Shown: positions 4,840-52,475 of the stretch, one piece after another
How positions within the stretch are numbered: the stretch's first letter is position 1
How the letters are laid out: every line of letters begins with the position of its first letter
Origin: Loxodes magnus
Lineage: Eukaryota > Ciliophora > Karyorelictea > Loxodida > Loxodidae
DNA length: 64,000 nt
Assembly: GCA_946699065.1 (NCBI GenBank)
Contig: CAMPDV010000081.1
Location: 558,001 to 622,000 of the forward strand
Direction: 5' to 3'
Made by a program: the position numbers and the translations under genes
The notes under the pieces: model-generated
The model's input: only the letters and a program-made list of their open reading frames with translations
Database searches by the model: none
Told to the model about the DNA's origin: nothing

Positions 4840-7044
4840 ATGAAGTGCAGTTTCTTTATAGATAATGCAAATACTTATCTTGGCACTAATTTATATGAAA
4901 AGTTCTCCTAAAATTCAGATAATGTAATATATGGAACTCTTCATCCTTAGCATTCAAATCCTCCTAATCCTAACATACAAGTAGTTGTGAAAGATGAACT
5001 TGGAAAATGGAAGAGTTAAGTGTTATAGTGTGATGTAATTATTTTCGATTTGATGACTTCAGATCTTACGGAGGTTGAGTATTTCATCAAAACTATAAAA
5101 TTTTCTAACTTAGAGAAAGAAATTACTATGATAGCTATCAGTTCTGTTCTAGTTTGGGGGAAAACGCCTGCTAAAAAAGTTGAAAGAGGAACTGAGGAAG
5201 AAGAAGGAGAAGAGGAGGAAGAAATTGCTGAGGAATCTGTAGAAGATCAACTTTAAGAAGGCGAAGAAGATTAGGAAGGTAAAGCTCCTAAGAAAAAATT
5301 TAAAAGAGTAGGATTTTCTGAGGAAGATTATACATGCAGAAAATCTCCTTTGAAATATGAGCCTTAAAAATCTATCGAAACTTTATTGATATCAGCTTCT
5401 TTAGGAAAAAAAAATTTCTTTGGATATGTTATTGCAGCAGGATTACTTTATGGAAAAGGAGAAAATACATTCAATTACCATTTCAAAAGCGCATGGCTAG
5501 AAGATCCTGAAGCACTGCCTTACATAGGAGAAGGAAGTAATATTATACCTACAATCCATGTTAAAGACTTAAGTACACTCCTATAAACAGTTATTGATAA
5601 TAAGCCAGTTATTAAGTACATTTTTGGAGTTGATGAATCTGGAAGATAAACTCAGAAATAAATTATTTAAGCTATATCATTAGGAATAGGAACTGGTAAA
5701 ATCTAGTCAATTCCAAATGGAGAAGAGTACGATTGAAATGAAAATCTCACGATAGATTTATGGTTGCTTCCAAGTCAACTTGTCAAGCCAAAAGAAGTTG
5801 AAGAGGAAGTTGATGAGGAAGTAGAAGTAAAAATAAAAGAGTTCTAATGGCATTGTAGGAAGGGAATTACTTAGAACGTTTCTATATTGGAAGCTGAATT
5901 TAATTAAAATCGCAATTTGAAGCCTATAAAAATATTCATCAGTGGCCCTCCTGCCGCAGGTAAAACATATTATGGGAAAAAACTAGCAGAGAAATATAAT
6001 ATTCCACTTATTTAAGTTAAAGAAATAATTGAATGGATGAATGTTTAAGAAGGTGACTTTAAAGATAGATTGTAAGAAGCTATTGAAGCATTAAGAGAAA
6101 AAAAAGCAGAAGAGCTTGAGGCAAAAGGGCTTGACAAAGACGAGATTGATACAAATGCTATTGAAGTTAGACATCCAGATGATTTAATCGCTTAAGGATT
6201 TTAAATGAGATTATCAAAAAATCATTGCAGAAATCGTGGTTATGTTTTAGATGGATGGCCTAAATCACATACAGCAGCCACTTATTTATTTTTTCACAAA
6301 GTTTCGAAGACAGGAGAAGAAGGAGGAGAAGATGAAGTAGACGAACTTTTTAAAGAAATTTTTCCATAATCCATAATTAGTCTCGATGATACTGATAATT
6401 TTCTTTTATAAAGAGTCAGAGATCTACCTTAGGAATCTGTTAATAACTCACATTATGATGAAGAGAATATGAATAGAAGGTTAAGTGAATGGAGAAAACT
6501 TAATGAGGGTTAGAGTGGAAACCCAACTTTAATGGATTTTTTTGAAGAAAACGGTAGTGAAGTTTTTAAAGAAAATAGTAGCCAAGAAGAATACAGTGCT
6601 TTGTAAAGCATGCTAGTTTATGTTGAAAGAAATGGAAAACCTTTTAACTATCTTACTGGAGAATTAGAGCTTGAAAATCTTAGATAAGAGTAATCGGAAA
6701 AGTTATAAGCTGAAATATTGCATAAGCAAAAATTATTAGAAGCAGAACAAGAAAATTAAGAATAAGAAGATAGAAATAAACTTATATAGTAAACAGAATC
6801 AAAGCTTCAACAAATTTATGCTAGGGAGAGAGAGCTTCTTGAAAACAAAGCATAACCTTTGAAGTAATATTTGCATGAAAATCTTGTTCCAATTCTTGCA
6901 GATGGCTTATTCTATATAAGCAAAACTTAGCCTTAAGATCCTATTGATGAACTCGTAAGTTTTCATATTCAGAGTAAATATTTATTCAAAAATGCTTATA
7001 AAGTTCCCTGTGCTGATCCAGGAAAATACTTTGGAACAATTTGA
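4840..7044 (+). CDS. AK7: Adenylate kinase 7 (AK7), ciliary
   Basis: 734 codons ending in TGA, close to the usual AK7 length (about 720). The order is that of the family: an N-terminal NAD-epimerase-like domain (about 1-330, interrupted by an acidic Glu-rich insert near 95-140), an adenylate kinase domain with the P-loop SGPPAAGKTYYGKKLAEKY at about 368-386 and VLDGWPKS near 469, a long coiled-coil and a C-terminal DPY-30 helix pair (NLVPILADGL...DPIDELV, about 680-707). AK7 balances 2 ADP with ATP plus AMP in motile cilia, and DPY-30 motifs dock onto axonemal partners. One Trp in the N-terminal domain is written TGA (YDWNEN, near 5735). The many Gln codons TAA/TAG would break it under the standard code. 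No intron seen. Confidence 0.94.
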
Positions 7045-7765
7045 GCTAGAACTCTTTGATTAAATTAACAGTTATTTATATTCTTTAAGACTTACTTAAT
7101 AAAATTAGCCCCTTCTACATTCATTAAATGCCTTTTATTTCCAATGCTATATAATATGCAATATCATTATTAACATACTTTAGCATATCTAATTAATCTC
7201 CCTCTAATCTAATTCTATTGCTTTCTAAGTATATAAAGAATTAGAGTAAGTTAAACTATGATTAAAAAGGCTTCTGATTATATTTTCTAATTAATTAAAT
7301 GAAAGGAAAAATAATTAGCTTATATGCTAGTAATTATCCTTACTGAAAAGCCTTTATTCCAATTAATATATTTTATAGTTTAACATTCTCTTTTAATTAA
7401 CTTTAGATAGGAAACTTTTATCTTATGCCAAATATCTCACTCTTTTCTTTAATAACTCACCTTATTTATAATAAAAACTAAGATTAAGCAGTTTTTGATA
7501 TTATGGATTAATAAATAGATATTCTATGAATACTTTAATGCAGAATTTCTTGCTTTAGAAAGAGGTTAAAGGACATTCTAAAAAAGATATAATTAGATTA
7601 GTCAATAAAACAAATAAAAATTGTAAGAATAGATGAACGAATAGTCTAATATAAGTTAGAAGAATAAGCAAATGAAAATGTTCTAACTACATAAATGATA
7701 GGAAATATATAGATAATGGATAAACATTATGATTAATAAAGTATTTTAATTAAATAAATTATTTA
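7045..7765. other. Gap with two weak, unassigned coding stretches
   Basis: Between AK7 and the carrier. On the minus strand about 7121-7470 has a coding-like frame ending in TGA at 7121-7123 (tail with RIRLEGDQLDMLKY), but no ATG in frame upstream. On the plus strand 7503-7740 is purine-rich and reads as a coding-like frame from an ATG (KIVRIDERIVQYKLEEQAN) without a TGA before the carrier. It could be a separate short gene, or a 5' exon joined to the carrier by a 32-nt GT...AG intron that would keep frame. I could not decide. Confidence 0.3.
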
Positions 7766-28108: not shown

Positions 28109-29027
28109 TCAATTTTTATCTCCTGTAGATTCATTTTGAAAAGAATGCTAGTCACTATATTTATGCATGCCCGACTGCATTTCAACTACTTTACTTATAT
28201 CAGTAGCTATTGCAGTATTTTCTTAACCTTAAATTAGTTTTTAACTATTATGACTATAAGACGGATCGTTGCTTAGATCTTCCTCTGATTAAATTCTTTC
28301 CTGCATTAAAATTTACAGCAAAAGATGGTCTTTTAGACACAATTCACTAATAAGTAGTAATTCCTTTACATTAAAGCCAAATATGGAGAAGGATCAAATG
28401 AAAATCAGCAGCAAGCACTCAAAACTGTTGAACAGTTATTATCAAAATGATCCAGATTTACGCTTTATTAAAGTTTCATTACTTTATAATTACACTCATT
28501 CCTACACAAAACTAAAAGGCAGAAAGGAATAACAAAAGAATAATAGAAAAAAAGAAATCTTTGTAGTTTAGTTTTCCAATGCAGTTATTAAGTCACTTAC
28601 AATGATGATCAAAGTTTAAAGTGCATCTATTACATTATCCACAGTGCTTGGAAGTATCTAAAACATGAGTTCTGCATATCATACATATATTATTATAAGA
28701 ACTTCCATCAAAGGTTTCACTATAATATATTAAATTTTACCCTCTTTGAATTGTTTTTCTTTCAAGGTATATTGTCGGATCTGAAGGATCGCATTTCGTG
28801 CATCTGACAACAAAGATTAGCATCAAGCTCAGCATTAATACATAAATGCAACTCAATATTATCTAGGATTCGACAGCGAAATAACTAATGAAAAGGACGT
28901 AGAAACTGACTAGATCTATAAAAAACACAATTCAGCTAAATATTTATTAGCTATGAAAAGGCCTGGTAAATCCATTAAGTTTAATTTTTTTATTATTTAT
29001 AGGAGAAACAATAGCTTAATTTCCCAT
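28109..29027 (-). CDS. DHHC palmitoyltransferase (in frame with upstream Rab)
   Basis: 300 residues with a 16-nt intron (28301-28316). It carries the zDHHC layout: NGFTRPFHSQQIFSW before membrane helix 1, helix 2 followed by RCTKCDPSDP, the Cys-rich domain (CRTHVLDTSKHCGQCNRC) ending in the catalytic FDHHCKWLNNCIG, helices 3 and 4, and GITTYQWIV in the place of the TTxE motif. The enzyme transfers palmitate from its DHHC Cys to cytosolic Cys residues of membrane proteins. It begins MGNQ, a possible N-myristoylation site. The intron restores the frame of the acidic tail that ends in TGA. The frame continues upstream into the Rab without any TGA, so this may be the C-terminal half of a fusion. 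Confidence 0.92.
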
Positions 29028-29051
29028 TTTTTAAATCAACCATTTAAATTA

Positions 29052-29631
29052 TTTGCAACACTTGCGAGGCTTTTCAACTTTCACTACACTTTGGATTAAT
29101 ATAGTTTCTCGCATCTCTGGATTCTTAATTAACTTTCTGCCTAAATCTTGAAAAACTTCTTGTATATTATATCCAGTCTTTGCTGAAGTTTCATAAAAAT
29201 TTAGGTCGAGTTAATCTGCAAACGTTTAAGCGGTTTATGTTGGGACTTATCTTTTCTCTTCTAAATCATATTTATTTCCTATCAGTACTTTTATATGCTC
29301 CTACTATGCGTTAGCATCTGCTTAATCAATTCATTCCCTTATTTTATTGAAGCTTTAGATAGAAGTTATGTCATATAGTAGAAAAATAGCACTTGCACCT
29401 TTATAATAGCTTGAAGTAATTATCCTATAGCATTCTTATCCTGCTGTATCCCACTGAATTATAACTTACAATTTAAAGTTTTATTTTTTAACCATCAACA
29501 TCAACTTCCTTTACCCTAAAATCCAATCCTATTGTAGGAACGAAGTTTTCTTTAAAGACATTATCAGCATATCTTAAAAGAAGAGAAGATTTACCCACAG
29601 CGGGTTCTCCCAGAATTACAATCTTTTACAT
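29052..29631 (-). CDS. Rab-family small GTPase (possibly fused to DHHC enzyme)
   Basis: About 188 residues with a 16-nt intron (29454-29469, GTAAGTTATAATTCAG) just before the G3 motif. All five G motifs are intact: GEPAVGKSS, the effector Thr in FVPTIGLDF, WDTAGQE, NKYDLEE and ETSAKTG. IGLDF and the G3 context place it with Rabs, which switch vesicle traffic. The natural C-terminus RKCCK carries the double Cys used for prenylation. The codon after it is TAA (29049-29051), which is Gln here, and no TGA follows; the frame runs 8 codons into the DHHC ATG. Either TAA stops here or the two are one protein of about 496 residues. Confidence 0.9.
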
Positions 29632-50681: not shown

Positions 50682-51528
50682 ATGGGTAGTACTATATTTT
50701 CAATTTGCACTTAAAGGAAAGAAGTAAAAGAATAGCAGAAAGAAGAAGTTAAGTATCTGATACCTATTTAATATATGCCAACGATAATTGAGAAAGATTC
50801 ATTCAAGTTAATGAAGCCTTCTTAAGATTTTTCTAAATATACTTAAAGAAAAATACATCAAATCATGAATCAAATTCAAGCTAGCAGCTATTCATATGAG
50901 TTTCCTCAAGAGATTAAAAGATATGATATTGCTGAGATCAGAAGATTTTTTGAAGTACATTAAAACTAAACTTTGAAATATATTTTTGAGGATCTGGTAA
51001 TTTTTTTCATTCAGAAATGAAGAATCAAACATTTGCCTTTAGATTCCTTAAGAGTAAAATAAATTTTATCGTCTGGAAATGTGTATGTGCAAGAGTACGA
51101 TAGAGACAGAAATGTGGTTATTGTGGCAAATCTTCAATAAAATTTATAGCTTGCAAATCAGCTTTAAGCAGTCATTGCATATGTTTTCGAGTATTTAACC
51201 TAATCTTTGTAAGGTTTAATTTTAGAATCATGAATAGATACACTGGGAAAGTAACCATCATTTTAAACTGCAAAAATTGCCAGTTTGAATATCTTCATTC
51301 TCTATATTCTTCAACTCTTGACTTCTTTGAGTAGCACTATCCTTAGAGACTTAACCTAATTTTACTGGGGAACTTGCAAATATTAGAAAAAGCCCAAAAG
51401 GAAAAATTGCAGGAGGTAAAGTTGGTAGTGAGAGGATTGGCGAATATTAACGATTTTAGCAAGTTTATAAACCCTTAGAAGCTGTCTTATGAACTAGGTG
51501 GTGTGGCTAAGATTAAGAACCAAATTGA
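50682..51528 (+). CDS. CRAL-TRIO (Sec14-like) lipid-binding protein
   Basis: 264 residues with three introns of 18, 17 and 17 nt (50997-51014, 51209-51225, 51501-51517), after which the codon count is exact and the frame ends in TGA. It starts MGSTIFS, a candidate N-myristoylation signal. The helical N-part (RYDIAEIRRFFEVHQ, WRIKHLPLDSLRVKQILSSG) leads into the Sec14 fold: VYVQEYDRDRNVVIVANL, LIMNRYTGKVTIILNCKN, STLDFFEQHYPQRLNLILLG and INPQKLSYELG, the conserved end of the lipid-binding pocket. The family carries phosphoinositides, tocopherol or retinoids between membranes. The last intron lies inside the usual ELGG end and supplies the stop. Confidence 0.87.
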
Positions 51529-51569
51529 AAATATTGGTCTAATTATTTAATTTTGTTTTTACTTATATA

Positions 51570-52475
51570 ATGTCTAGAGTAGAACCTTAAAAAATTCCTG
51601 TGTTTCCTCATATCATAGGAGCAGGTTGTGCTGGTTCAATTGCCGAAGTTTTTACTCTTCCTACCGATACTGCTAAAGTAAGACTTATGACTATGAGATA
51701 AACTGGATAGATTAATCCAGCATATAAAGGACTCTTCAGTACAATGGCTGCGATCATTAAAGAAGAAGGACCTAAACGTTTATGAGCAGGACTAAATCCA
51801 GCTATTTAAAGATAAACCATAAATGCTGGAATAAGAGTAGCACTTTACGATTATTTACTATAATGTGTATGCTCTGACTAAGAATATAGGAGACCACCTA
51901 TTTATAAAAAAATTGTCTGCTCATTAACTTCAGGAGCAGTAGGTATCTCCTTAGCTAATCCAATGGATGTGGTAAAAGTTAGAATTCAAGCTGATAGGAA
52001 CTTTTCAAAGCCTAGATATACAGGAACAGCAAATGCTTATGTAACGATTTTAAGAGAGGAGAAATTCCTTGCCTTTTGAAAAGGATTAGATATAAATATT
52101 TATAGAGGAGCAATTATTAGCTGTGTTGAGCTAACTGGATTTTTTTAATGCAGATAATGACTTGTTGAAGACTATTAGATTATGAAAGATGGCCTGTTAT
52201 GCCATGCTACTGCTGGAAGTTTCGCTGGCTTTTTAGCTGTGATTGTTGGAAACCCTGTTGATTTCTGCAAAAATAGAGTATAAAATGCTAAAAAGGGAGG
52301 AGAAGGAGATTACAAAGGCTTCTTAGATGTTATTAAAAGGACCATAAAGGATGAAGGATTTCTAGGATTTTACTAAGGGGCCTCTAGTAATTTTGTAAGG
52401 CTGGTTTCTTGGAATTTAGTAATGTTCGTAGCATATGGACAAGTTAAAGAAATCTTGGCAAACTATTATGTATAA
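51570..52475 (+). CDS. Mitochondrial carrier (SLC25), uncoupling-protein-like
   Basis: 301 residues to the natural C-terminus. Three repeats with signatures LPTDTAKVR, NPMDVVKVRIQA and NPVDFCKNRVQNA; repeat 2 and GAVGISLANPMDVVKVR are typical of the UCP / dicarboxylate / oxoglutarate branch. It begins 41 bp after the CRAL-TRIO stop on the same strand. Trp codons RLWAG and AFWKG are TGA. The odd point is the end: after AYGQVKEILANYYV the next codon is TAA (52473-52475), and no in-frame TGA occurs for about 300 bp. Either TAA terminates, a 19-nt intron at 52470-52488 leads to a TGA near 52631, or the protein has a long tail. Transported substrate unknown. Confidence 0.9.

Follow-up and report, generated by a model that had tools for sequence, protein, structure and literature searches.

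An in-frame Rab GTPase and DHHC palmitoyltransferase in Loxodes magnus are probably two neighbouring genes, the first ending at UAA

In the 64,000-nucleotide stretch of the Loxodes magnus genome analysed here (the window), a Rab-family small GTPase and a DHHC palmitoyltransferase follow one another in a single reading frame, with a TAA codon directly behind the cysteine tail of the Rab. The sequence argues strongly for two complete neighbouring genes, a Rab that very probably ends at UAA and a DHHC gene with its own ATG and a UGA end. Their separation, which is the most likely reading, rests on a second role of TAA: normally a glutamine codon, it appears to serve as a stop as well where the Rab and a minority of its relatives end. 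UAA would most likely be a minority stop in L. magnus beside UGA, read as glutamine inside genes.

The original prediction described the Rab and the DHHC as lying in one uninterrupted frame, and this is indeed the arrangement found on the minus strand between 29631 and 28109 (Table 1). The Rab starts with the ATG at 29631 and reaches KPRKCCK at codon 188, and codon 189 (29051-29049) is TAA, as had been predicted for the codon after RKCCK. The count of eight sense codons between there and the DHHC methionine has to be corrected to seven, one of which is a second in-frame TAA. The statement that no TGA intervenes holds for the reading frame, in which none is met for 39 codons past the Rab TAA, but not for the spacer as a whole, which contains an out-of-frame TGA at 29038-29036. 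Likewise, the 21-nt length given for the spacer is correct, but the spacer is not the shortest, as only 19 nt lie between the TAA of a CRAL/TRIO-like gene and the start of the mitochondrial carrier gene behind it (51548-51570). With TAA read as glutamine and four predicted introns removed, the joined Rab-DHHC reading comes to 482 residues instead of the ~496 first proposed, and Pfam places Ras at residues 3-162 and DHHC at residues 301-419 of it. The chance of such an in-frame arrangement is 1 in 3.

Table 1. Features at the Rab–DHHC junction and TAA gene ends (positions are those of the window)
Feature	Position	Strand	Basis or remark
Rab-family small GTPase, 188 residues, tail KPRKCCK-TAA	29049..29631	-	Pfam Ras; PDB matches
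16-nt intron GTAAGTTATAATTCAG, WDTAGQE region of Rab, predicted	29454..29469	-	removal restores conserved motif
17-nt GT..AG candidate GTTAATTAAGAATCCAG, would yield ...PKCSES-TGA; judged non-intron	29117..29133	-	intron score; tail alignment
TAA directly after KCCK, Rab stop position	29049..29051	-	position matches that of TGA in paralogues with CCK-TGA
Spacer TTTAAATGGTTGATTTAAAAA, 21 nt, from TAA to DHHC ATG	29028..29048	-	GC 0.12 (TAA counted in)
DHHC palmitoyltransferase, own ATG 29027, TGA end 28111-28109	28109..29027	-	Pfam DHHC; start context; homologue starts
21-nt intron, DHHC gene, predicted	28720..28740	-	frame and family fit
16-nt intron, DHHC gene, predicted	28301..28316	-	frame fit towards TGA end
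21-nt intron, DHHC gene, predicted, weak intron score	28207..28227	-	frame fit only
CRAL/TRIO-like and UCP-like carrier genes in tandem, separated by 19 nt, TAA at the expected end of each, no near in-frame TGA in either	50682-52475	+	
TAA end of CRAL/TRIO-like gene, 19 nt before next ATG	51548..51550	+	frame free of TGA over 109 codons
UCP-like mitochondrial carrier, 301 residues, TAA end 52473-52475	51570..52475	+	Mito_carr 6.8e-62
Ten TAA-ended Rabs elsewhere in the genome (L025, L061, L064, L069, L071, L095, L097, L098, L100, L104)			

Judged by its sequence, each half of the frame looks like a whole protein. The Rab matches Pfam Ras with an E-value of 4.1e-59 (199.2 bits, cut-off 21.6), has Rab1A as its top PDB matches, and contains GEPAVGKS, WDTAGQE, NKYDL and ETSAK, which we take to be the Rab G motifs. 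Eleven of the 16 glutamine codons before its end, a count that includes the glutamine of WDTAGQE, are TAA, with two TAG and three CAA making up the remainder, so TAA is used as a sense codon within the gene. A run of three consecutive CAA codons at the Rab end was set aside as weak. If TAA stops translation, the prenyl cysteines lie within three residues of the protein end, and if it specifies glutamine they do not; among the listed Rab matches of at most 230 residues (n = 114), 99 have CC at the end, 3 have CCx and 12 have another ending. In all 12 of the best matches, the tail is colinear with paralogue tails ending in CC or in CC plus one residue, and CCK-TGA is a common end in the paralogues, which argues that the Rab of the window is complete at its TAA. 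The gene thus has the Ras domain, the G motifs and the basic tail with CC of other Rab GTPases, and differs in carrying TAA where most paralogues carry TGA. TGA stands at the end of each of the 12 nearest tails, in one case as CC-TAA-TGA, and the TAA would therefore not have been inherited from a near TAA-ended paralogue.

The downstream half matches Pfam DHHC (2.3e-23, 83.2 bits, cut-off 28.7), the DHHC motif itself standing at residue 329 when the two parts are read as one, and its nearest named matches are from Blepharisma stoltei and Stentor coeruleus. In a start-context model trained on 22 further predicted genes in the window, the DHHC ATG scores 2.18, a value reached by 6 of 163 internal ATGs, and the starts of 19 of the 22 model genes score no higher. 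Furthermore, an NGF occurs within the first 120 residues in 20 of the 55 DHHC matches looked at, at residues 4-21 in 16 of them and at residues 44-72 in the other 4; here it stands at residue 18. With its DHHC motif, NGF...P N-terminus and own start, the gene shows no notable difference from other DHHC palmitoyltransferases.

The four introns removed from the joined reading (16, 21, 16 and 21 nt) are predictions, placed by frame and family fit, and the one at 28207..28227 scores below most chance candidates. A home-built gene finder was used for guidance only, as its intron choices are crude and, for the DHHC gene, differ from those made manually. With TGA as the only stop it merges Rab and DHHC, because only TGA may end a gene there; with TAA permitted, it picks TAA for one model in the window, the merged CRAL/carrier.

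The behaviour of TAA at other gene ends was surveyed in the Ras superfamily across 705,730,643 bases of genome sequence in 7843 contigs. The set consists of 128 genes out of 150 scored matches, themselves drawn from 721 candidates, each read in frame past the end of its domain. A tail counted as carrying a prenyl motif when CC or CxC stood in it no later than the first TGA, and the 0-3 residues past the motif were then read for a stop. Sixty of the 128 3' ends have such a motif, and 68 are without one in frame. TGA lies within 0-3 residues of the motif in 50 of the 60; in the remaining 10, TGA is absent from that position and TAA is present in every case, with no end that has TAG only and none that has neither codon. 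The next in-frame TGA in these ten genes follows 18 to 97 codons past the motif. This count, which rests on one superfamily, on splicing inferred from frames and on ten genes that are not all independent, supports the alternative raised in the original prediction, namely that translation can still end at TAA. The Rab of the window lies outside the 128-gene set and counts as an eleventh case.

Because the motif rule was written after the first 88 tails had been seen (36 TGA, 5 TAA), the fairer test lies in the 40 later ones, which gave 14 TGA, 5 TAA and 21 without motif. Varying the range in which the motif was sought left the TAA class unchanged, with 46 TGA, 10 TAA, 1 TAG-only and 1 neither for codons 20-70, and 52 TGA, 10 TAA, 0 TAG and 0 neither for codons 30-110. 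Against a TAA stop, only 5 of 12 loci run through the gene finder with TAA permitted were given a TAA end at the motif. If UAA were only a glutamine codon, the TAA behind KCCK would have to be chance. TAA occurs in 808 of 5760 random 4-codon stretches of these tails, and its position exactly at the Rab end, here and in ten other genes, is not well explained by chance. Three diverged paralogues, with tails that agree in 29 to 34 of 57 columns, share the end CCKN-TAA. Ends of CaaX type fall outside the rule; four such genes end in TGA (L017, L094, L105 and L110, with CNLL or CNVL) and two in TAA (L116 with CNVL, L021 with CLIF).

The codons around the ends also differ between the two classes. 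TAA is missing from the last 20 codons of the TAA-ended genes and the window Rab (0/220), as against 28/1000 in TGA-ended genes, whereas TAG is not reduced (7/220 versus 29/1000), and in the 12 codons that follow the end TAA is commoner in the TAA-ended set (15/132 versus 33/600). The 60 nt behind TAA and TGA ends are similar in GC (0.20 and 0.19). In the other genes of the window, TAA is barely depleted before the end, at 0.41-0.48 of glutamine codons versus 0.51.

Several loci met during the survey merit separate mention. At L133 (G000 C41:359600-364500; also L077 and L071), two Rabs stand in tandem on the same strand, with 36 nt separating the CCN-TGA end of the first from the ATG of the second, and short spacers therefore exist elsewhere in the genome; the downstream Rab of the pair reads CCKL-TAA-TAA. 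Two close Rab copies (L001 and L002) end in CCK-TAG-TGA, where TAG may add a glutamine (CCKQ) or help to stop. Five genes that are presumably Ran-like (L083-L086 and L090) all end in DEDL-TGA. At L123, a Ras-like domain is followed in frame by a second Ras-like domain with no TGA between, a possible fusion or TAA-ended pair. Within the window, a gene that by eye we take to be adenylate-kinase-like ends with two in-frame TGA codons five codons apart (7042 and 7057; 7042-7059, plus strand).

TAA also stands where two further genes of the window are expected to end, and these form a pair with the same anatomy as Rab and DHHC. The UCP-like mitochondrial carrier aligns to UCP1 up to residue 296, five residues short of its TAA, past which the frame meets no TGA for 186 codons, and its start context outscores 162 of 163 internal ATGs. 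The gene before it is the weaker case, because its CRAL_TRIO score of 19.2 bits is under the Pfam cut-off of 22.6, and a 17-nt candidate intron would supply a TGA. As candidate introns could supply TGA in both the CRAL/TRIO-like and the carrier gene, the pair is weaker than the Rab set.

A true fusion, in which UAA is glutamine at the junction and GTPase and palmitoyltransferase form one 482-residue protein, would account for the unbroken, TGA-free frame and for the gap of only 21 nt between the two parts, and it accords with the published code, in which UGA is the sole stop. It would nonetheless turn the cysteine pair of the Rab into an internal one and join two halves that both look complete, and it does not extend to the TAA ends of 10 other Rab-type genes. 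Moreover, no protein with both domains was found among the database matches listed (the best 120 of 1645, 54 of 54, and the best 120 of 7971), and no ciliate Rab-DHHC fusion was named in the titles of the six papers listed by a literature search. The fusion put forward in the original prediction is thus unsupported, the Rab tail matching its paralogues in 12 of 12 cases and the DHHC having a start of its own, and is judged very unlikely. Were it real, peptides would be expected from QFKWLIQK, or from MGNQAIVSPINNK linked to upstream residues. It is unlikely, though conceivable, that a fused product is made by conditional read-through of the Rab UAA.

A hidden short intron such as the 17-nt candidate at 29133-29117 could instead end the Rab upstream at a TGA, with PKCSES as its C-terminus. 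Seventeen nt is the modal intron length reported for L. magnus (PMC11441545), the product would carry a cysteine at position -4, and the score of 2.34 falls inside the range of trusted introns (-0.55 to 7.89). Scores as high are, however, reached by 79 of 245 chance candidates in intronless genes, and 11 of the 22 other predicted genes of the window, taken as controls, hold such a chance candidate near their end. The earlier claim that no short GT...AG intron creates a TGA was too strong, as 5 of the 13 candidates of 16-30 nt tested between Rab codon 136 and the DHHC ATG would make one before that ATG, but all five begin at codon 154 or 161 and shift KPRKCCK out of frame. A hidden-intron rescue of TGA was dropped because the workable candidates lose the frame of the cysteine tail and that tail aligns with those of paralogues; it would also leave unexplained the remaining TAA ends, in which no more than three residues can separate the cysteine motif from the stop. 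An intron of this kind is extremely improbable. The remaining rival is a stop-loss allele or base error, with a true TGA stop and one G-to-A change at this locus. TGA and TAA differ by a single transition, the nearest paralogue tails are TGA-ended, and heterozygosity is given as ~0.6%; against this stand the intact G motifs of the Rab and the same TAA in ten other Rab-type genes, three of them diverged paralogues, and at two other gene ends of the window. We regard such a change as highly unlikely. Two complete genes, the first ending at UAA, is the reading that we favour.

Seah et al. 2022 are reported to allow, in their abstract, for UAA as the stop of a small minority of transcripts in karyorelicts. 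The finding is accordingly of a kind already known or suspected, that of a context-dependent code, to which a clear locus and a count from one superfamily are added. The account of the L. magnus genome, in its passages on the code, names UGA as the only stop, its gene predictor does likewise, and UAA as well as UGA is described as depleted before stops (PMC11441545). The genes described here conform to this karyorelict nuclear code (NCBI table 27; L. magnus, PNAS 2024, PMC11441545) in reading TAA and TAG as glutamine, with TGA as tryptophan or stop and with short introns and 3'-UTRs (introns of 16-25 nt and a median 3'-UTR of 41 nt in the published account), and depart from it in the UAA ends of 10 of 60 prenyl-motif genes. 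In the karyorelict Parduczia, UGA is reported in every inspected transcript (PMC4967479).

Closer parallels are found in organisms with codons of dual meaning. In Condylostoma magnum (Swart et al. 2016, PMC4967479), UAA likewise specifies an amino acid within genes and terminates translation close to the end of the transcript, and a figure legend presents a UAA-stopped gene whose transcript overlaps that of a separate downstream gene. Termination near the poly(A) tail was proposed there. The two systems differ in that all three codons stop in Condylostoma, with proof from ribosome profiling, whereas TAG-only ends number 0 of 60 here and the case is built from genomic DNA. In the nuclear code of Blastocrithidia (mBio 2025, PMC12153298), UAA is also described as having both roles, with few occurrences ahead of the stop and a higher frequency beyond it, much as in the TAA-ended set here (0/220 in the last 20 codons, 15/132 in the next 12). 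UAA is glutamate and a genuine stop in Blastocrithidia, and would be glutamine and a minority stop beside UGA in L. magnus.

By analogy with Condylostoma, UAA in L. magnus would be read as glutamine within genes and as a stop at the ends of a minority of them, terminating translation when it lies near the poly(A) tail. If a UAA stop requires a nearby poly(A) tail, the mRNA of the Rab would have to finish shortly past its coding sequence, at the latest in the opening part of the DHHC coding region. Because the 21-nt spacer is shorter than the median 3'-UTR, overlapping transcripts have to be assumed, which counts against this reading; with a 3'-UTR of the median 41 nt, the Rab mRNA would stop among the first codons of the DHHC gene, and the Rab and DHHC transcripts would overlap or abut.

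Should a sizeable minority of L. magnus genes end at UAA, as 10 of 60 do here, gene models would become too long or be joined to the neighbouring gene, since a predictor that admits UGA as the only stop would produce false fusions at UAA ends. The TAA-ended Rabs and their TGA-ended relatives would also offer a natural set for the sorting of one codon into sense and stop, and pairs such as L013 (NCNC-TGA) and L025 (SCNC-TAA) could test the poly(A)-proximity model.
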